Shown here: one piece after another, positions 1,211 through 26,511 of the stretch | Position numbering within the stretch: position 1 is the first letter of the stretch | Layout of the letters: every line of letters begins with the position of its first letter | DNA from: Fragilaria crotonensis | Lineage: Eukaryota; Bacillariophyta; Fragilariophyceae; Fragilariales; Fragilariaceae | Assembly (NCBI GenBank): GCA_022925895.1 | Contig: JAKSYS010000366.1 | Span: 1-60,826, forward strand | DNA length: 60,826 bases | Direction: 5' to 3' | The notes under the pieces: model-generated | The model's input: only the letters and a program-made list of their open reading frames with translations | What the model was told of the DNA's origin: nothing | Database searches by the model: none | Translations under genes and position numbers: made by a program

Positions 1211-2606
1211 ATTGCCTAGTACATTATAACTTAGTTAAGCACGAGCCATGTACAATGCAGCGCTGCTTCATTGGAAACCGATTAGACGGTAGAATAGGTC
1301 TGCTATCCCCAAAAGCCACATGATTTTACAAGGTGACGAGATGGGATGGCATCAATGAAAAAGTCCTGGGCAGAAAATCGGTTCGCCGAATTCGTAATCC
1401 AATGGCCTGGACGGCTTCGTGAAGGCCTACTCGAGTAATTGGCAGTAATGGTAAGATCTGCAGTGGACTTCAGGCAACATATGCTGCTAGTAGTCGGAGT
1501 ATGCTCTTATTACTTTTCGATGCCTGGGCTTATTAAGAGTGGGAGTCAAACTTAAGAGAGTTGAAAGTTGTATATAGCTTGTACTCCGAGTACTACTATA
1601 GTAGGCACTCCGACGTCTCTCGGCACTCCGAGCTCCGAGTATTCATATGCCGGTTACCATAGTCTCCCTTCTCAGACCCGTCCCGGGCGTTTCACGGCAC
1701 TTCAGTCTCCAGCATTGTAAAGATTCTGGGACTCTCCAAGTTGAAGTAAGTGACCCTGTTGGAGTTTCGAAGTGGGAGTACAACTACCAGGTTCCAGGTA
1801 TTCGGAGTACACAGTACAAGTATGCCGAACTCGGAGTATTCCGTGTTGTTCTGTAGCCTACGAGTTCTGAAGTATCAGAAGTTCTTGTAACAGGAACAAC
1901 TGGAACATGCGCTACTAGTACCACTTGAGAAGTCTAATGTTGTGGAGTAACATGGACATCGTTGAGTCTCGCGCCAAATCTCGCCCTCGAAAAAAGAAAA
2001 ATGAGGTTGCCGTTGTTTGAAATATATCGGTATACGTATATAATATATCTTTGCTTACTACACGACACAAATCCTGTCCTTCTGCCGTGGTTCGGTAGGA
2101 GGGATACAATCAGCAGCTGACGTAGGCGTGACATGAATCAGATGGAACAACGAGAACACACATGGATCGTACCTGTTGTCTACTGTTGAAAAGTACGGCT
2201 GTTGGAGAAGTCTTGGGAAACTGAAACGTTGGGTACTTCGTATATGGCGATGAATGTTATAGATTGACGGCGGGAATGAAGAGTGACTGAATACATACAA
2301 AAAAGCGCGCGCAAGGAACATTATTTTAATAGATATAGCTTTTCCCACATGTTTTTAACGTTAATGGAGAACAGCACCTGGTACCAAAATTCACTTTCTT
2401 CAAGGAGGGCTTGAGTTTGACACCTCGGTGGAGCTCAAGAACCCAGTAGTTTTCCGGGACTTCAAAAGGCGAGGGTTTCTACACTGATTTGTACATGCTA
2501 CCAGTACCGTAAATGCAAGATCAAAATCGAAGTCAGTCGTTCATGACGACCTGCCACCCACAAAAACCTGAAGGAAACAATCGTATCACTGCGATAAGAA
2601 TCAATC
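1211..2606. other. intergenic, CTCCGAGT-rich
   Basis: No supported gene. Between about 1580 and 1850 the sequence is unusually dense in short words such as CTCCGAGT, GAGTACT and GGAGTAC, in both orientations. These words recur in other gene-free parts of the window (7340-7580, 26895). The rest is unremarkable. Confidence 0.4.
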
Positions 2607-3386
2607 ATGGTTCTGGGATTGAATATGAAACCACCCTCATTCAGAGGCCCCAAGAACGGTAGAAAGAACGCCTCACTCGCTGGTTGTGACCAAACGACGT
2701 CGAAGCGAACTGTGGAACCTCGCGTTGGATTGCAACGCTCCAACTCGTTTCAGTTTGGCCGACGAAAGCTTCTCCAGGTGGAGCGAACTGAATCTGACCG
2801 CACCATTCATCTCACTGACAGCTGGTTTAACACATCCGCAAGGAACTTGATGGTTGACTCTTCTGTAGGTGCGAGTCCTCCGCCGCGTCCAACTCACACA
2901 AGGAACTTCTCGGAAGATACAACTGCGAGTTCGATCAGTGCATCCTCCGTGGACGATGCAAGATTGCAAGCAGCGAGAGAGTTTGGTCTGATGCTAGCAA
3001 AGAACAAGAGACTTCCCACTGTGTGTCCAGGATTTGTGAGCAGCAACCACGTGTTGGTGAACAAGGAGCGAACAGCATTACACCTTCCTGCACTCACGAG
3101 ACGGATAGAACTCGATGAACTCGCTAGAGAGTTTGCCCAAGTCATGGCGAAGAGCGGAAGGGTTCAACGATACTATCCTATGGATCTCGACGATGGAATT
3201 ACGCAGTGTGAAGTTCTTGGAGTGAACGTTGCGTGCGGACCATCCGTGCAAGAGATTCACGAAAAGATGCTGCTGAATCCTAGCGAGCGAAGTAAGATGG
3301 TGGATCGTCGCTATTCTCAAATGGGAATGGGGACCGCAAAGGGAAAGAACGGCAAGCTTTACCTGTGCCAGATTTTCAAGGGCTAG
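2607..3386 (+). CDS. CAP/SCP-domain protein, copy 2
   Basis: A 259-residue intronless paralogue of the gene at 476-1210 on the same strand, 1.4 kb downstream. The shared core is clear: SSNHVLVNKERTALHLPALT, RRIELDELAREFAQVMA, VNVACGPSVQEIHEKML and MGMGTAKGKNGKLYLCQIF. The N-terminal 110 residues are again Ser/Thr-rich and basic, with little identity to copy 1. Two putative cavity residues have changed: the GENVACG motif reads GVNVACG, and the His between the helix and this motif is replaced (QRYYP). If CAP-cavity chemistry matters in this family, copy 2 may have lost or altered it. No signal peptide is visible. An alternative start is Met7 at 2625. Confidence 0.8.
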   Translation: MVLGLNMKPPSFRGPKNGRKNASLAGCDQTTSKRTVEPRVGLQRSNSFQFGRRKLLQVERTESDRTIHLTDSWFNTSARNLMVDSSVGASPPPRPTHTRNFSEDTTASSISASSVDDARLQAAREFGLMLAKNKRLPTVCPGFVSSNHVLVNKERTALHLPALTRRIELDELAREFAQVMAKSGRVQRYYPMDLDDGITQCEVLGVNVACGPSVQEIHEKMLLNPSERSKMVDRRYSQMGMGTAKGKNGKLYLCQIFKG

Positions 3387-4840
3387 ATTGGAGTCTTTAA
3401 CTCCCATCGGCCCTGATGCCAATTGTTGCTGGTAGAGTTGATTCTCAACTCTTTTGACCAGTGATTAGATTACTAGATGCGAATGCTGCAGGCTTTATAA
3501 TTGTATCACTAATACACCTGTTACACTATACTTCTGATTCTTCGTATTATGAATAGATCTCAGTTACAGTATGATCATATGCTGTGTTCGATTCACGTGA
3601 AGAAGTCTTTCGAGGTGTCGTGCATGGTTGAATCGCGACGACCAGATTCGAGGTGCATGTTGAGGTGCGTTTCCCACGTGACAACGCGATAAACACAAGC
3701 GGCATTTTAGTTCGTGGTTCGTTTATGCCTCGGATACGTAGGTTCTGGTATACTTCATAGAGGGATGTTCAAAAGGCACTTGATCCGTCGTTTGTTTTTT
3801 GGTTCGCGACAAGTAGGTTCTGGTATAAACTGCACTTGATACATCATTAATGACCTGCCGTGGAATGTTGGACATTTCTCGACTTCATCAAAAATTTCAA
3901 ACCGTATTTAGCAAGCACCCGGTAGCGATACGACATATCTTGTATGTTTATGCCTACAGCGTCTAAGGTTCTGATGCGAAGCCCTATGGCGATCTCATTC
4001 CAATCGACAACGGTTTAGACACATTTAAAAAGAATAATGATACAGATAAATACTTACAGTGCATATAATATAACCACACCAGGTCAGTGCTCAACGCTTG
4101 TAATCGGCTGTCAGATTTGACGCAAATGCACAGGCTGTCAAATGAAATCGCCGATGTCCCTTACAATTATTCAAAGAACTTTTGCAGGGTGTGCTTAATT
4201 AGGATCTCAGTACCAGATTCGGTTTTTCTGAAGCATTTCACCATTCCATATCATCCCAATGGACAAACAACGCCGTGTCGATGACACTGACCCAGCTACG
4301 TATCTCGATGTACCACGTATCGAACCCTGCTTTCTCACTAATCCTTGACAGCACTCGAGACTCAAATGGAGGGACAATAAATGTCTTGGTATCGATGTCG
4401 TCCATTATCGCTGATAGTCGAGATTGCTATCAACAGCACGAAAGGTCGAACAAGCACACTATGGGTGTCGTATGATTCATACAAACGCGCGAAACTTGGG
4501 GTCACCGATTGACAATCCGCGATTTTTTGAACAGAAAAAATAGGCGTGCTGACTGTCTACCAACCCCGCCATGAGGTGTCGCCGACGGGCATGACACAAA
4601 CAGCTTCCGTTCTATCGACCAGATCTTAATAGTGAGTTTGTTATGATGATGATGATGGTTACTGTATAGTGCGATTGTCTTGATAAAAAAATGCTCATCG
4701 TTAAAGACGAAATTGCGATGCGACTACTGATAATGAATCGCACAAGAACAGCGCTTTCCTTCCGCGTGTAGTTAAAACCCCGCTGAACCACATGTGAGAA
4801 GTGGAGACTGGCGCCATAGTCAGTAGTAATAGTAAGGAAC
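3387..4840. other. gene-free stretch
   Basis: No ORF with recognisable similarity. A phrase of the form GGTTCTGGTATA...CACTTGAT recurs at about 3738 and 3805, suggesting a small degraded duplication. The segment 4612-4840 would be the genomic sequence beyond the ancestral 3' end of the bZIP gene (see the duplication at 4841). Confidence 0.35.
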
Positions 4841-5350
4841 TGGTCACAAACTGTGAACAACTTCTCCGTCACACTTTCACACTATTGCACGAGTCACGTC
4901 TAGTCTAAATAGTGCGATGACAATGGCGACCCATTCATATTCTATTCACGGACAAAGGAGTCTCAACGCACTTCCCCGTTGACATTGTCTACATAGGTTG
5001 TTGCTCTTGTTGTTGAGTAACTTGCTGAGGAATCTCGACACATTGCTTTGGAGGTTGCTGCCACATCATGCCCATGGGAATTGCAGGTGGAAAGCCAATG
5101 AATTGTATTCCCTGTGCAAATTGAGCTTGACCAGCCTGCTGGGCAAATGCATTAATGGCATCCGCATAGGCCTGTTGTGGGCTGGCTGCCGGGTTCATAC
5201 CCATGGCAGCCTGCATTGCGGCCGCAGCAGCTTGTTGAAAGGCAGCCATTGCTTGCATAGTGGCGCCTGGTTGCATCTGAGGTGCTCCAGAGGCTGATGT
5301 GGCGTTGGATGGAGTCTGATCAGGACCAGCAGTAGAGGCATTAATGGCCT
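4841..5350 (-). repeat. direct repeat, copy A (bZIP 3' part)
   Basis: 510 bp nearly identical to 5471-5980 at a constant offset of 630 bp. By eye there are four mismatches (one near 5236, three in the last 15 bp). It carries the last part of the bZIP coding sequence and its 3' UTR. The homology to copy B stops exactly where copy B meets a T15 tract, while copy A continues into unrelated genomic sequence below 4841. Confidence 0.9.
4989..5350 (-). pseudogene. 5'-truncated duplicate of bZIP gene 3' end
   Basis: Encodes only the Ala/Gln-rich C-terminal 120 residues of the adjacent bZIP protein (shared text such as INASTAGPDQTPSNATSASG and the terminal QQVTQQQEQQPM). The open frame runs upstream into about 100 bp of unrelated sequence (5351-5456) but finds no ATG and no basic region, so it cannot encode a bZIP factor. 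It keeps the same stop and 3' UTR as the intact gene. Confidence 0.8.
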
Positions 5351-13737: not shown

Positions 13738-16700
13738 ATGAGCGATAATGGCCTTTCTTACGAGGTTGACACAAAAATCAATGATGACGACCAGTACTAC
13801 GAAAGCAGAAAACCAGTGCCCGTGTCATTTGACATGATGACATTCGAATTACCGGATGCGAGCAAGGAACCGAGCGTGTATGAACCATCCATGAAAGAAC
13901 CGAGCTTGTACGAACCCACCACAAAGGACACACCTCCTGCTCCTCCAACTAGGAATGATCATTCACAATCTGCCTCCAACATTCGTCGGAAACAGAGAGC
14001 ATCACGACGAAACCTAATGGCGTCAGCCACACCAACCCCTGCACAGGACAACCTCAAGAATCCGCCACGGGAGATGCCTGAATCCATCCAAACAAGCAGT
14101 AACAGTAGTACGCCAGTCGAGCCTAGTCGCTCTTCGGAAACTGAAATGGACCCTGTTAGGGAAGCCAAGTGGACGGGCGAAGCTGAAGAAGAGTCCACAA
14201 TCGCTCGACGCAAAGCTATTCAAGAAATCATGAAGGACACATCGCTCAGCGCTGCCGAAAGGAATCAGAAAATACAACAGCTCATGAGTGGAAAGATTGT
14301 TATAGATCCAACACCATCCACACGGACCGGCGAGACCAATGACAACGTGTCGAAATCAATGCGAAAGAATGTCGAGGCAGTCAACATTGGCGGTGCTTCG
14401 GCCTCTTTCAACTCTTCAGGAAAAAATCGAAACAATCTCGACACGAAACCAGGTTTTACTGCGGTCAAAGGTACCGATACCAGGGCTGACATGAAAGCAC
14501 GACGCGAAATGGTTCCCATGAGTCCAGGAGATCAGAGAATAGGGAACATGGATAGTCAATCCGGTTCCGATTCCAAAGTGGGGTTCACAGCTGTTCGAGG
14601 GGAGGACTCGAGGGTCAAGGGTAAAGTGAGTCGAGGAATGGCACCAATTTCACCCGGGATATCACAATTGCAAACTGCAGAAGATTCCAAGGACAACCAA
14701 AGTGGAGATGTGCGACCAGGTGTGACTGCTGTCCGAGGCGAGGATGCACGAATCTCGCGTAAAGCCAACCGTGGTTCCACCACTGTAACCTTACCGTCAG
14801 ATTTGGTTGCAGCTCCGCAGTTTGATAACGACGAACCCACTCGTGCTGGTGGGCAAGTTTCGATGGATCGATCAGGTGCAATTGATGCCGAGAACTCCTT
14901 TCCTCCTCATCGATTCCTGGCGCATCACCCGTGTTGGGACGCGACTCACGAGTTTCCCGCAAGCTGCAATCAAGCTTGACTGTGCCACCGGTGGCTTCAC
15001 TAAAGGTGGATGATCCTTCCTTCTCATCGACTCCCGGAGTGTCGGCCATGCGGGGGAGTGACTCACGAATTTCGCGCAAGTTGCAATCGAGCACGATTGT
15101 TCCAGCCGTGGCATCATTGAAGCTAGATGATAGTGAATCCGATGAAAAACCAGCCTCTAAACCCGGCGCAGTCGTTTCCTATTCAAATTCGCGTGTGGCT
15201 CGAAAAATCGGTGTCGCAACCACGGCGAATGCATCCAATTCTGCCACCTCCTTTGCTTCCTACGATGTTACGATGGATGAACCCGGCGCCATTGCGCCAG
15301 GCAGTGCCATGTCAATGGCCGACGACTCACGGGTGGCTCGAAAGATGCAATCAAATTCGAATAAAGGTCCTGGAGTTTTCGCGTCAACTGATGATTCTCG
15401 CGTTCGACGAAAAAAGAGCGGGTCTAGACGCTCATCCAGTATATCAGATGGACGAGCTGCAGAAAACGCTGAAACCTTTGAGGACGAACCTGAGAGCCTC
15501 GCCCTTCCAGGCAGTGCCGTTGCATCAAGGAACGATTCTCGTCTCGCCCGAAAAATTGCGCAAGGAGGTACTGGTGCCGGCGCTCAAGCAGCATCCGACG
15601 ACACGGCTGTTTCCAAGAAAGTTGGTCGAACGCGAGGGGCTGCATTGGGCCTTGCGGCAGCGACCGCTGCAGCAAACATTGGTGCTGTTCAAGCATTTGG
15701 CGAAGATGAAGCTGCCCAGAAAAAATCATTTGTGCAAGACGAGCTATTCTCTACTGACGACGGCAATGATATCAATCCTGACGATTACCTCATGCAACAA
15801 GTTAGAGCAACGCAGCAAGCGCAACAGAAAAAGATTGCAAAGAAGAAGCCAGATAAAGATTTGGACGAATCCGAAGGGTTGCATAAAGACGGGGATGCTG
15901 CAGTCCCCAAGGTTCCTGGTGCCTTTTCTGTGAAGGGAGGACGAGGCTGGTTTACGGGGGGCTTTCGCCAGCGCGCCGCTCGGGGTATGGTACGCATTCG
16001 GAACCAGGTCATCTTGGACGCGGACGTTACCGCGGTTGCCGAGGATGGCATCGATGAGGAAGAAACTTGGTGGGATCGCGCTGACAAACCGACTCTGATT
16101 GTTGGTGCTTGCGTATTGGTATTTGCCATCATTGTCATAAGCGTCCCTGTTGCGCTTGCGGTAACGAAAGAAGATCCACCAACACCGGCGCCGACAAGCC
16201 CACGTTTCTTCGCTACGGATGACTTCAAACAATTGCTCGCCCCAGTTACGGATCCTGCAGCGTTTGAAAATCCAGAGTCTCCCCAGAGTCGCGCCCTAGA
16301 TTGGATTGTCTACGACGACGAATTGCAGCTTTTACCGAATGACGCGGCCACCATTCAGCGATACATCTGCATGGTTATGTACTTCGGCAATGGTGGCGAG
16401 AATTGGGACTTCCCGCAACCAGCTGTTGAATGGGGTTCTGGGGTTCACGAATGCGAATGGGATTACATCACTTGTGAATCCAACATGACTGTTGGGAAGC
16501 TGAACCTTCTTGAGCTAGGGTTGACAGGATCTTTGCAAGCAGAGATGGTGCATCTTTCACAGCTATCATCGTTGGATCTTGGTCGAAATAAGTTAAGCGA
16601 AGTCAGCTTCCCAGTTTTGCTTTTGCAAATGACAACATTGAGGTTCCTCTATCTTGATTCACTTGGCTTGAAAGGAACCATACCCAGTGAGATTGGCAAA

Positions 16701-17444
16701 CTCAATAAGCTCGAACAATTGTATTTGGGCTCCAACAGCTTCTCTGGTTCATTGCCGACCGAAATACAGGGATTGACTTCCATCGAGGGTTTCCAGGTCA
16801 ACACAAACAACTTGGAAGGCGACATCTTCAACATCGTTGGAAGCTGGCCTGTGCTCAAGAACTTAGATTTTGGTAACAACGATTTCATCGGGAAAATTCC
16901 GACGAATCTTCCTTCAAGTCTGGTGTCTTTGCGCCTCGACCGGAACAGTATTAGTGGCAGTCTTCCGACAGAATTGGGAGCGCTGAAATTTCTCAAGTCG
17001 GTAATTGTGACACAAAACTTTCGACTTGGTGGAGCCCTTCCTAGTGAGCTAGGGAGGTGCTCCTCACTGGAAACCCTGCAAATTGACTCAAACATGTTTA
17101 GCGGTAACATCCCATCTGAATTGGGCAACCTGCCTGCCATTCAAGAATTACGTCTTGGTCAGAACGAATTCACAGGAATGATTCCCTCAGCGTTGGGGAG
17201 CTGTACAACGTTGACCAGTCTTGATTTTAACAACAATAATTTCATCAGTGCAGTGCCGACCGAGTTGGGCAAGTTGACCGCACTGTCGTTGTTGTGGCTC
17301 CAATTCAGCAACTTGTCCGGCTCCATGCCGAGTGAAATTTGTTCTCTACGAACAAACAAGTTGATTGATCTTCAAGCCGATTGCAAATTCTCCAATGCGG
17401 AATTAAAATGCCAAGAGCCTGAATGTTGCACGCTTTGCCATTAA
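13738..17444 (+). CDS. transmembrane LRR protein with DSR repeats
   Basis: About 1235 residues once one break near 14898 is bridged (a missing T in CTCCTTT shifts frame; the repeat motif resumes in the next frame). N-terminal part (1-780): disordered, charged, with a helix near residues 154-186 (IQEIMKDTSLSAAERNQKIQ) and about nine copies of a G-x-DSR-(V/I/L)-x-RK motif (e.g. RGEDSRVKGK, GRDSRVSRK, GSDSRISRK, ADDSRVARK). One TM helix follows at about 784-808 (LIVGACVLVFAIIVISVPVA), then a Pro/Thr linker, SPQSRALDWIVYDD, and 10-12 plant-type LRRs (LxxLYLGSNSFSGSLPTEI) over about 918-1208. It ends in a Cys-rich CCTLCH tail. No N-terminal signal is seen, so it is probably type II: LRRs outside, repeats in the cytosol. 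Diatom LRR proteins of this layout are thought to be surface receptors or adhesion proteins; the ligand is unknown. Confidence 0.88.
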
Positions 17445-23729: not shown

Positions 23730-26511
23730 TTACACGGAAACGGACGTTTGTCTTCTACGCACAGAACGCTGTCGGTTGTTGGGATGCCGGATATTTCTCT
23801 GCAACATGGCTACCACATCAACTACGTATTCCCACTGCCCGGCATGTATCCGCACTAGGCTTGATGATGAAGTCCTACTGACAGCGAAAGACTGAAATGC
23901 AGTTTCAAGCTCCACCTGGTGCGAGTCGGAAAACGGTGTCCAGTCATCGTCACCTTCGTACTCCCATATGAAGGTGATGCCGTTTCCCATCTCAACGTCT
24001 GGTGCACCCTCTCTGGCCTCATCCTCATTCTCGAACGGAGTGCGATTTCGATCACGCGAACCCCGGTAGTATCGAACTAAGTAGTCCGGATAAGCACGTC
24101 CATTCTCGTACACCACCCAAACTTGCGATCCAGCTGTGTGTCCGGTCACAGTGTTGTACTTTAAGTTTGTCACGGGGTCAGTAGGCGGAATGATAAGTTT
24201 CTTGCACTCGGCAGCTATTAATGGGCTCTCATCTCGATCCAAGAGAACTTCCTTGCCCACCAGAAGCTTCGTCAAGAACATCTCATGTTCGTCCTTCACA
24301 GCTCCGGGCCGTTGTACGGACGATGGAAGCAAACCAGAAGTACCAAGGAAAGGCTGGTAAGAGTAGCCTTTCGAGTAGCTGCTCTTTTCCGCAAAATAGA
24401 TCCCACGTCTACAGATAATGGTGAACAGAATGAGAAATCTCAACCCGACGACGCATACAACGCACACGACAATGCTTTCACATTCCAACTTACCCCCACA
24501 ATCCACTTCGAGAGTATTGCATCATGAAACCATCCTGGCGATCGTTGTAGATAACGCTTGGGTCGACACTTGACGTACCGTGCCAGACAGTCTTTTCGTT
24601 GTGATCAATTCCGTTCATTTCAAGTCGATCTTTGTGAAAGGAGTAATATGTCCAAATTGAGATGTTTTGGATCCTCCATAGCTTGGATATATGTGCATCG
24701 CTCATGTCTCCTCGCAGTCGATTGCACACCGCCCAATACTGCGTGTCATCAGGCAAGACTTCCACAAGGACTTCGTTAGAGCCGGACCACGTTTCTGGCC
24801 TTTCTATCAAAGCTGCTCGCTTTTGCATGAGCGATGCTTGACGTCGTTTGGCTGCTTCAACTTTGTCATCGATATCTATGATTTCGTCATCAATCTTTTG
24901 CATCGCCTGCATTCTTTTCTCAATATCCGACATGTTGGACTTGAGAGCAGCCTTCCCCCTGCGACTCCTCCAGTACTTGAGCAAAACCGCGACAAGGAGA
25001 ACCAGCAAAACGGAGATGACAGCTATTACCCAAATTTCAACAGGAACAGGGTACTTATCCGATGGAAAGGGTTGCGGGTTGCAGCCTCTCGCAGCAACAC
25101 AAATGCCAGTCCGATTTGGCTGAGCCAACGAAGTAGTGGCATCCCCGACCTCAACCCATTGTCCCTTGCCATCTATTTTCTGCATATTAAGTATTGTATA
25201 GCGAGGGTTGCTACGATCTCCCTCTGTTGTGAAACTGACATTTCCGCTAACGCCTTGGAACGTCAGGTTACGGAGTTGCGCAGTGACGAGTGACCCGATG
25301 CGGCGTGAGTTTCTTGAGACCATCGAAAGCGCTTTCACGAGGGCAAGAATCGAGTCAACCAGTAAGGGAGCAGTGAAGTCTGATGGTAGTTGGGACATCT
25401 CGCTAAGCCCCTGCACCTCTTGGAGCCGTTTGAAGTATGTCTGATATTCCTCAGCATCACTGTTCCTAAACGGTACCAAGCCAAGGTATCCTGGATATTC
25501 AGGCACGGCGAAGTCATCCGGTGGATCTCGACCGACCCAGGCTTGAGGTCCAACCCAAATTGTGTCATTTTGAAAGCCTATCTCACCAGCTTTTTTCAGA
25601 ATAGGATACGCATTGGTGTCCTCAGCGACTAGCAATATCACTCGTGAATTTATTTTCGGATCACCGGTTGGGACACCCTCCAAGGCTTTGACGACAGAAT
25701 CTGAATCTATTTTTCCTTTGTCGAAAGTAATCGTGGACGAGTACGCCACCTTTCCTTCCCATGGATTACTGCCGTCCACTTGGTGCATTCCCTTCCAAAG
25801 CTTTTCAAATGCAGTAGAAAAGTCGTTTGCATACTGCGTATCAGTGCTGAGAATCGAAACACGGTCCCACTGAAACGATCGCAGCAAAGCAACCATTGCC
25901 AGAGCTTGTCCCTCAGTATCGTTAGCAACCAGGCGGGAGAAGAGAGGAAAGTCGTTTTTGTCACTCAGTTTGTATGATGTGGAGCTTGGGGAGACTTGAG
26001 TAATATTTTCCAAGTTTGTGATACCTCCGACGGTAATCGATGCACCTGAACACCGAGGGCCCACCACACCATGAACAATTCCATCCCAGTTGTTTCGGAT
26101 TTTCCAATATGCCTCGGCAGCAGCAGTTGCCGCATTGCACGCTGTGTTGGTGATGTTATAATTAACGATCGTTCCGTCAGAGAAGATACCGTCAGGGAAG
26201 ACCTCCTTAACCCAACGATCTGTGTGATTATTGATCAACGAGAAGGTGAAGTCGACCAGTTGCTCAGTCCAATTAAACAACTCGGTGGTGTCAAAAAGCA
26301 CAGCGATGTGCACGACACTCTCGTTGGATGCGTTTTGCAACTCTCGGTGTTGCACGTCGATGCCTCCACCAACCACCTCCTTCTCGCATGGGCAGATCTC
26401 TGCTGGGGCGCTGCTCGTCGCGGCATTCGCGGAACCAAGGGGAGTGCATCCGCTCAACAACACGATGCTAGTCAACAACTTCGCAAGACGGCTTCCTTGA
26501 AGGAATCCCAT
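23730..26511 (-). CDS. receptor-type PARP: ligand-binding, TM, PARP, WWE
   Basis: Two exons (24494-26511, 23730-24408) joined by an 85-bp intron (GTAAGT...CTGTAG); the junction restores LWG/RGIYFAEK. About 898 residues. Order: signal peptide (1-30); ANF/periplasmic-binding receptor domain (about 64-460: VVGPRCSGASITVGGITN, SSTSYKLSDKNDFPLFSRL, RVSILSTDTQYANDFSTAF); Cys-containing juxtamembrane segment; TM helix (about 491-514, WVIAVISVLLVLLVAVLL); basic stop-transfer and coiled coil (about 527-570); PARP catalytic domain (about 575-785: LWRIQNISIW, VWHGTS with His644, RGIYFAEKSSYS with Tyr677, AYPDYL); WWE domain (about 817-893: FIWEYEGDDDWTPF, VVDVVAML, RQRSVRR). The third triad residue, normally Glu, aligns with Val769, so mono-ADP-ribosylation or no catalysis is expected. 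Many N-x-S/T sites support an extracellular N-terminus. Inferred role: an external ligand sensed and relayed by cytosolic ADP-ribosylation. Confidence 0.88.

Follow-up and report, generated by a model that had tools for sequence, protein, structure and literature searches.

Flytrap-PARP fusion genes of the diatom Fragilaria crotonensis point to ligand-regulated receptor ADP-ribosyltransferases

Results

The window, i.e. the whole stretch of 60,826 nucleotides of F. crotonensis DNA that we analysed, harbours on its minus strand a gene made up of two exons. Exon 1 (24494..26511) is an open frame that ends at a GT donor (24493-24492) and encodes the N-terminus, a Venus-flytrap (VFT) domain, a transmembrane (TM) segment, a coiled-coil-like helix and the first half of a PARP domain. 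Exon 2 (23730..24408, minus) contributes the second half of the PARP domain, a WWE domain and the stop codon. Between them, inside the PARP domain, lies a GT-AG intron of 85 nt (24409..24493, minus). When this intron is read unspliced, a stop follows immediately in frame; joining of the exons at 24494/24408 yields an in-frame protein of 898 aa. The intron is found at the identical codon in two related genes that lie in tandem on another contig (C94a and C94b; the window gene bears the contig label C299), where it measures 76 and 71 nt, respectively. Pairwise, the three lengths differ by 9, 14 and 5 nt, the flanking exons still being in frame. A comparison of the window exons with those of C94b (882 codons) gave 175/123/322 differences at the three codon positions, and the comparison with C94a (880 codons) gave 180/159/321, with the third position being the commonest in both cases. 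The two-exon gene with these coordinates and this junction had been proposed in an earlier sequence-only reading, and the proposal is upheld by the open joined frame, the GT-AG boundaries and the shared intron site.

We also scanned 20 other long ORFs of the window. Those with matches fell into two kinds, reverse-transcriptase pieces and ordinary eukaryotic genes, the latter including importin-like, ArfGAP, methyltransferase and tRNA-editing ones. An ORF of 852 aa (14886-17441, plus), which lies some 6 kb away from the receptor-PARP gene, has leucine-rich repeats toward its C-terminus and might represent a second receptor-like gene.

A Pfam scan of the spliced protein revealed three domains, all exceeding the curated cut-offs: the VFT (ANF_receptor, residues 111-445; 25177..26181, minus; E 2e-45), the PARP catalytic domain, which is split by the intron (residues 605-786; 24069..24699, minus; E 1.4e-11, 44.7 bits vs a cut-off of 26.7), and the WWE domain (residues 820-891; 23754..23969, minus; E 1.9e-12, 47.8 bits vs a cut-off of 21.1). 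The VFT is followed by a single TM segment (residues about 486-516; 24964..25056, minus), with a hydropathy peak of 3.34 over 19 residues, and by a juxtamembrane coiled-coil-like helix (residues 517-571; 24799..24963, minus). The succession of VFT, single TM, coil, PARP and C-terminal WWE, which had been read earlier, thus held according to Pfam and to sequence comparison with PDB entries, the WWE being weak in the latter. It had been stated that a failure of HHpred to detect PARP after HGTS/GIYFA, or the flytrap fold in the N-terminus, would refute this reading; Pfam detects both domains. A single-sequence AlphaFold model of the window VFT was uninformative (mean pLDDT 39), and the VFT fold is called by sequence.

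One dominant hydrophobic segment is present in all six VFT copies of the genome (see below), with peaks of 2.37-3.34; minor hydrophobic segments (1.65-1.79) occur in C299, C94b and C843. In the window protein, 11 of 14 N-glycosylation sequons are located N-terminal to the TM. Two other elements of the earlier reading fared less well. The signal peptide had been called by eye only and is unsupported on the Kyte-Doolittle scale in the window copy, where no N-terminal 19-mer exceeds 1.6; one such 19-mer is present in C94b. In a heptad test, the coiled coil had only weak support in the window copy and C94a, where 128 and 138 of 2000 shuffles, respectively, scored as high, and better support in C94b (52), C658 (32), C843 (17) and C328 (15).

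When we searched the 62.1 Mb assembly (881 contigs) with the window protein, we obtained 18 matches, counted per exon. The order VFT-TM-PARP-WWE is found at six distinct loci, namely C299, C94a, C94b, C328, C843 and C658. The single gene that had been implied earlier must therefore be corrected to six distinct loci of the VFT-PARP kind, to which two receptor PARPs with Cache-type sensors are added. Identities to the window protein amount to 66-69% for the tandem genes (exon 1), 49% for C328, 44% for C843 and 43% for C658. All three domains were confirmed by Pfam in the latter three; the domain calls for C94a and C94b rest on genome-level profile and protein searches and on the family alignment, not on Pfam scans of spliced proteins. 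In both C328 (863 aa) and C843 (859 aa), a single ORF without introns encodes all the domains. Since these two are single uninterrupted frames, the architecture of the window gene is not that of a mis-spliced chimera. The possibility that the two exons belong to separate mRNAs, which would have refuted the sequence-only reading, is thereby excluded for the family; for the window gene itself there is no transcript evidence.

In C328 and C843 the first ATG is placed directly at the first VFT strand and no signal peptide is visible, which suggests a missed upstream exon or another targeting route. The search for an upstream signal-peptide exon of the intronless copies gave unproven hydrophobic candidates in C328 (one) and C658 and none in C843; no candidate could be linked to its gene. 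Broken relatives were encountered as well. C49 is a near-copy of C658 (99.2% over 4.5 kb) with frame breaks in its VFT-PARP gene; the two could be allelic haplotigs, or a recent duplicate of which one copy is broken. C49 and the fragments on C81 were left out of the family alignment and of the count of six loci.

A third copy on the tandem contig (C94:1-7000, ORFs 2514-5022 minus) has a VFT and a TM that continue in frame into a stretch resembling, by eye, a kinase N-lobe, and a kinase domain (Pkinase 1.3e-19) comes next in another frame. Its VFT is interrupted by an in-frame TGA and there are frame changes, so this copy may be decaying. It suggests that effectors have been exchanged behind one and the same sensor.

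The genes of the VFT-PARP family are under purifying selection between paralogues. We calculated pairwise dN/dS values (Nei-Gojobori, own script) for six close pairs, three among C299/C94a/C94b and three among C843/C328/C658; nine distant pairs were dropped because synonymous sites were saturated in many domains. No domain reaches a dN/dS of 1 in any of the six pairs; the ranges are 0.13-0.25 (PARP), 0.28-0.52 (VFT), 0.23-0.57 (TM plus coil) and 0.21-0.62 (WWE). The PARP domain has the lowest value in five of the six pairs, the exception being C94b/C94a (WWE 0.21 vs PARP 0.23). These values are pair averages, in which the window gene's own branch is not isolated. As a family under purifying selection resides in the same genome, a chance or mis-spliced chimera can be excluded.

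The catalytic residues of the window PARP are H644 (24580-24582, in HGTS), Y677 (24396-24398, in GIYFA) and V769 (24120-24122). Its nearest solved relatives are PARP14 (6e-16), followed by PARP15, PARP12 and tankyrase, and V769 aligns with a leucine of PARP14. In total, we found eight distinct PARP loci in the genome. Six of them are PF00644 matches, five of which pass the cut-off; the other two, C299 and C94b, were hidden from that search by the intron. Histidine and tyrosine of the triad are kept in all eight; the third residue is V or I in each, and a catalytic E at this position is absent from all of them. According to the H-Y-E versus H-Y-phi rule, a hydrophobic third residue goes along with mono-ADP-ribosylation, and it is the pattern of the active mono-ADP-ribosyltransferases (mono-ARTs) PARP10, 12, 14 and 15. 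Since the third triad residue is V or I and not E, we predict that the chemistry is mono- and not poly-ADP-ribosylation. The output that had been proposed earlier, ADP-ribosylation, is refined in this respect; enzyme activity and ligand dependence are inferred.

Each of the eight PARP loci found has a sensor region and a TM ahead of the enzyme, although in one of them (C89) the frame changes after the TM. Likewise, the nine WWE matches of the genome are all located in these PARP genes or in C49. The nearest solved relative of the window WWE is the WWE of RNF146, albeit weakly (E 0.0066). RNF146 is an ADP-ribose reader. Six macrodomain matches in the genome are possible readers or erasers; an eraser of the ADP_ribosyl_GH type gave no match in the genome search, where controls were positive in 5/14. 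No DNA-repair-type PARP was seen among the detected PARPs, and a genome search for PARP_reg gave no match, but its control was silent as well, so that the absence of a nuclear PARP is not demonstrated.

On the sensor side, the window VFT has its nearest solved relatives among the metabotropic glutamate receptors (mGlu5, E 3e-14), and a profile of the six paralogues points to mGlu7 (3.5e-22). The best 60 of 98 solved relatives of the window VFT and the best 60 of 227 for the profile are mGlu and calcium-sensing receptors (plus PARPs for the profile); neither set contains an ANF receptor. In mGlu1, the main residues for amino-acid recognition are S165, T188, D208, Y236 and D318 (PMC2680970). We placed their equivalents via alignments to mGlu receptors and the family alignment and carried the mGlu1 numbering over to them. 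The window VFT keeps four of the five, with S155, T178, D198 and Y227 corresponding to mGlu1 S165, T188, D208 and Y236, and Q323 in place of D318. All five are present in C328 and C843, four in C658 (D318 = G) and three each in C94a and C94b, where the equivalents of D318 and D208 are Q and S, respectively. The motif is thus complete in only two of the six loci. It is likely that at least part of the family responds to amino-acid-like ligands and that ligand choice diverges among the copies. This is an inference without binding data, and the residue match does not imply glutamate as the ligand.

Altogether, the genome has 21 ANF_receptor matches, which divide into seven VFT-PARP genes (including C49), one VFT-kinase-like gene (C94), one fragment (C81) and 12 others. 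A 7tm_3 domain is near nine of these 12; C6, C112:12390 and C405:91481 remain unresolved.

The two remaining PARP loci possess another type of sensor. In C41 (L005:2-2170), whose 723-aa ORF is truncated at the beginning of the contig, a sensor-like region, a TM, a charged helix, WWE and PARP follow one another in a single unbroken frame. C89 (L021:4476-6917, L004:785-2314) has an ORF of 814 aa with Cache repeats and a TM and, after a frame change, an ORF with helix, WWE and PARP. Its Cache domains were detected as dCache_2 (8e-19) and sCache_2 (1.2e-16), in three stretches each, and C89 was the sole match in a genome search with sCache_2. In NCBIfam, its sensor matched a sensor histidine kinase (5e-11), far under the model's cut-off, and among solved structures only the chemoreceptor TlpB appeared, without significance (E 0.18). 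The start of C89 looks like a signal peptide by eye; no 19-mer above 1.6 is found there. C41 has no Pfam Cache match. We call it Cache-like because its sensor shares 66% identity with the matching C89 stretch and, weakly and below the cut-off, hits a sensor kinase model of NCBIfam (E 0.0021). The possibility that C41 and C89 are ordinary soluble WWE-PARPs was rejected in view of the TM and coil in C41 and the Cache domains in C89.

The PARP of C41 is nearest to PARP15, 14 and 10 (3e-40), a much closer relationship than the window PARP has with any of the three. In addition, the order WWE-PARP in C41 and C89 is the reverse of the order PARP-WWE in the VFT family. In light of both observations, the simplest interpretation is that the Cache-type and VFT-type receptor PARPs arose by separate fusions, with the reservation that no tree stands behind it. 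Between C41 and C89, dN/dS is 0.61 for the cytosolic part (PARP 0.81, WWE 1.20, linker 0.23) and 0.38 for the shared sensor repeat. Constraint on this pair is weak, and C89 might be decaying.

Discussion

Domains, gene structure, membership in a family, purifying selection and the conservation of catalytic and, in part, ligand-site residues are shown for the VFT-PARP genes. The reading that we prefer, with a probability of roughly 0.7, is that they encode ligand-regulated receptor mono-ADP-ribosyltransferases, for which activity, ligand, dimerisation, direction of regulation, reading by the WWE domain and topology are all inferred. According to this model, the extracellular or lumenal VFT would bind a small, probably amino-acid-like ligand. 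By analogy with VFT receptor kinases and receptor guanylyl cyclases, its closure would rearrange a receptor dimer via the TM helix and the juxtamembrane coil and thereby activate or reposition the cytosolic PARP of the H-Y-V type. Using NAD+, the PARP would mono-ADP-ribosylate the receptor itself or nearby membrane proteins. The C-terminal WWE is presumed to read the ADP-ribose and to bring about receptor clustering or partner recruitment, and macrodomain proteins may erase the mark. The notion of a single-pass receptor enzyme is supported by the second, unrelated Cache sensor that is wired, behind a TM and a coil, to WWE-PARP in C41 and C89. Points against it are the incomplete motif in four of the six loci, the unproven signal peptides, the weak coil in the window copy and C94a, the weak constraint on C41/C89, the frame change in C89 and the lack of a match for an ADP_ribosyl_GH-type eraser.

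The rival that survives best is an organelle sensor, in which the VFT faces the lumen of the ER, the vacuole or the plastid envelope and detects internal amino acids. This is possible and compatible with the chemistry of the main reading. A membrane-bound precedent is PARP16 with its C-terminal TM region (PMC4245714), a protein located in the ER, and a signal peptide has only weak support in the window copy and is unproven in C328, C843 and C658. On the other hand, the nearest solved VFTs are surface receptors. The 11 of 14 sequons before the TM would fit a surface as well as a lumenal side and separate neither.

Less probable is a receptor pseudo-enzyme, with a catalytically dead PARP that, together with the WWE, only binds ADP-ribose or partners. 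In its favour, none of the eight loci has E as its third triad residue, the PARP score is modest (44.7 bits) with a domain diverged from PARP14, and some PARPs, RCD1/SRO and PARP9, have been described as inactive (PMC4245714); the same has been proposed for PARP13. However, the NAD+-binding histidine and tyrosine are present in all eight loci, active mono-ARTs likewise have a hydrophobic residue in third place, and PARP is the most constrained domain in five of six close pairs, all of which renders this rival unlikely.

An artefact, be it neighbouring genes fused in the reading, a contaminant contig or a decaying duplicate, could be suspected from the broken relatives (C49, the C81 fragments, the third C94 copy with its in-frame stop), but it is very unlikely and contradicted for the family by the single-ORF genes C328 and C843, the shared intron with in-frame exons, purifying selection, the ordinary eukaryotic genes in the window and the diatom-type silicon transporters of the assembly (19 matches, 18 over the cut-off), which agree with the earlier attribution to a diatom.

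As an aside, some silicon transporters are tandem-fused in single ORFs, with three units in C97:29749-33762 (1456 aa) and two in C771:21664-24330 (1008 aa). Fused silicon transporters are known from araphid pennate diatoms such as Synedra/Ulnaria.

A mobile or viral origin was also considered and rejected, as neither exon 1 nor C328 has a PHROGs match. A search for relatives of the family in viral and prokaryotic contigs gave 52 and 71 pattern matches, respectively, none of which was confirmed; each scan rests on two short peptide patterns and is weak evidence of absence.

In the open-access literature that we searched, no receptor with a sensor ectodomain and a PARP is described, so the earlier statement that no described receptor couples ligand binding to ADP-ribosylation holds within these bounds; database annotations that are undiscussed in papers were outside this scope. 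The survey of PARPs in PMC4245714 contains the word 'receptor' solely in its reference list, and the word PARP is absent from the main text of PMC3727952, in which class C GPCRs in diatoms were published. PARPs were first reported to be absent from the diatoms' group (PMC2964712); later, at least two were found in Thalassiosira oceanica and none in its close relative T. pseudonana (PMC4245714).

Known single-pass receptor enzymes signal via kinases, phosphatases or cyclases. If the receptor mono-ADP-ribosyltransferase reading is true, extracellular sensing is tied directly to NAD+ chemistry through an ADP-ribosylating receptor, and the family offers a concrete ligand class (amino-acid-like) and a natural design for studying the ligand control of a PARP. 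A bolder reading, which could as well prove wrong as right, is that receptor ADP-ribosyltransferases constitute a separate receptor class next to the receptor kinases and cyclases. In this genome the class would have been built at least twice, with an amino-acid-type flytrap and with a Cache sensor of the bacterial-chemoreceptor type; the whole detectable PARP/WWE repertoire would serve membrane sensing and not DNA repair, and environmental metabolites would be read directly as NAD+-dependent protein modification.

Comparison with known systems

Among PARPs, the clade 3 mono-ARTs (PARP14, 15, 12, 11 and 7) have the same H-Y-hydrophobic catalytic domain, often together with a WWE, but are not known to have a ligand-binding ectodomain and a TM. 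Furthermore, the WWE precedes the PARP domain in PARP7, PARP12, PARP13 and plant RCD1 (PMC4245714), whereas it follows PARP in the VFT family. PARP16 is likewise a membrane-bound mono-ART, but its TM is C-terminal and it lacks a ligand-binding domain (PMC4245714).

The class C GPCRs of diatoms have the VFT ectodomain in common with the window protein and differ by their seven TM helices and a presumable G-protein output. Receptor guanylyl cyclases (natriuretic peptide receptors) share an ANF-type flytrap, one TM and a juxtamembrane coil before the enzyme. Their effector is a cyclase, whereas that of the window protein is an ADP-ribosyltransferase; Pfam finds no cyclase domain in it, and identity as a receptor cyclase was rejected. 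A matching design is provided by the Venus kinase receptors (VKRs) of invertebrates, which also combine an extracellular VFT, one TM and an intracellular enzyme, and whose VFT binds amino acids and which form surface dimers (PMC2680970, PMC3703292). In these animal proteins the effector is a tyrosine kinase, in the diatom receptor it is PARP plus WWE, and the insulin-receptor-like kinase domain that is the criterion for VKRs has no Pfam match in the window protein. VKRs demonstrate that a VFT with a single TM and an enzyme is a working receptor design (PMC2680970). Individually, the VFT, PARP and WWE domains and the VFT-TM-enzyme design are all known; what we did not find described in the open-access papers searched is the pairing of receptor and PARP, for which the function is inferred and the architecture is shown, and which recurs in several genes of one genome.
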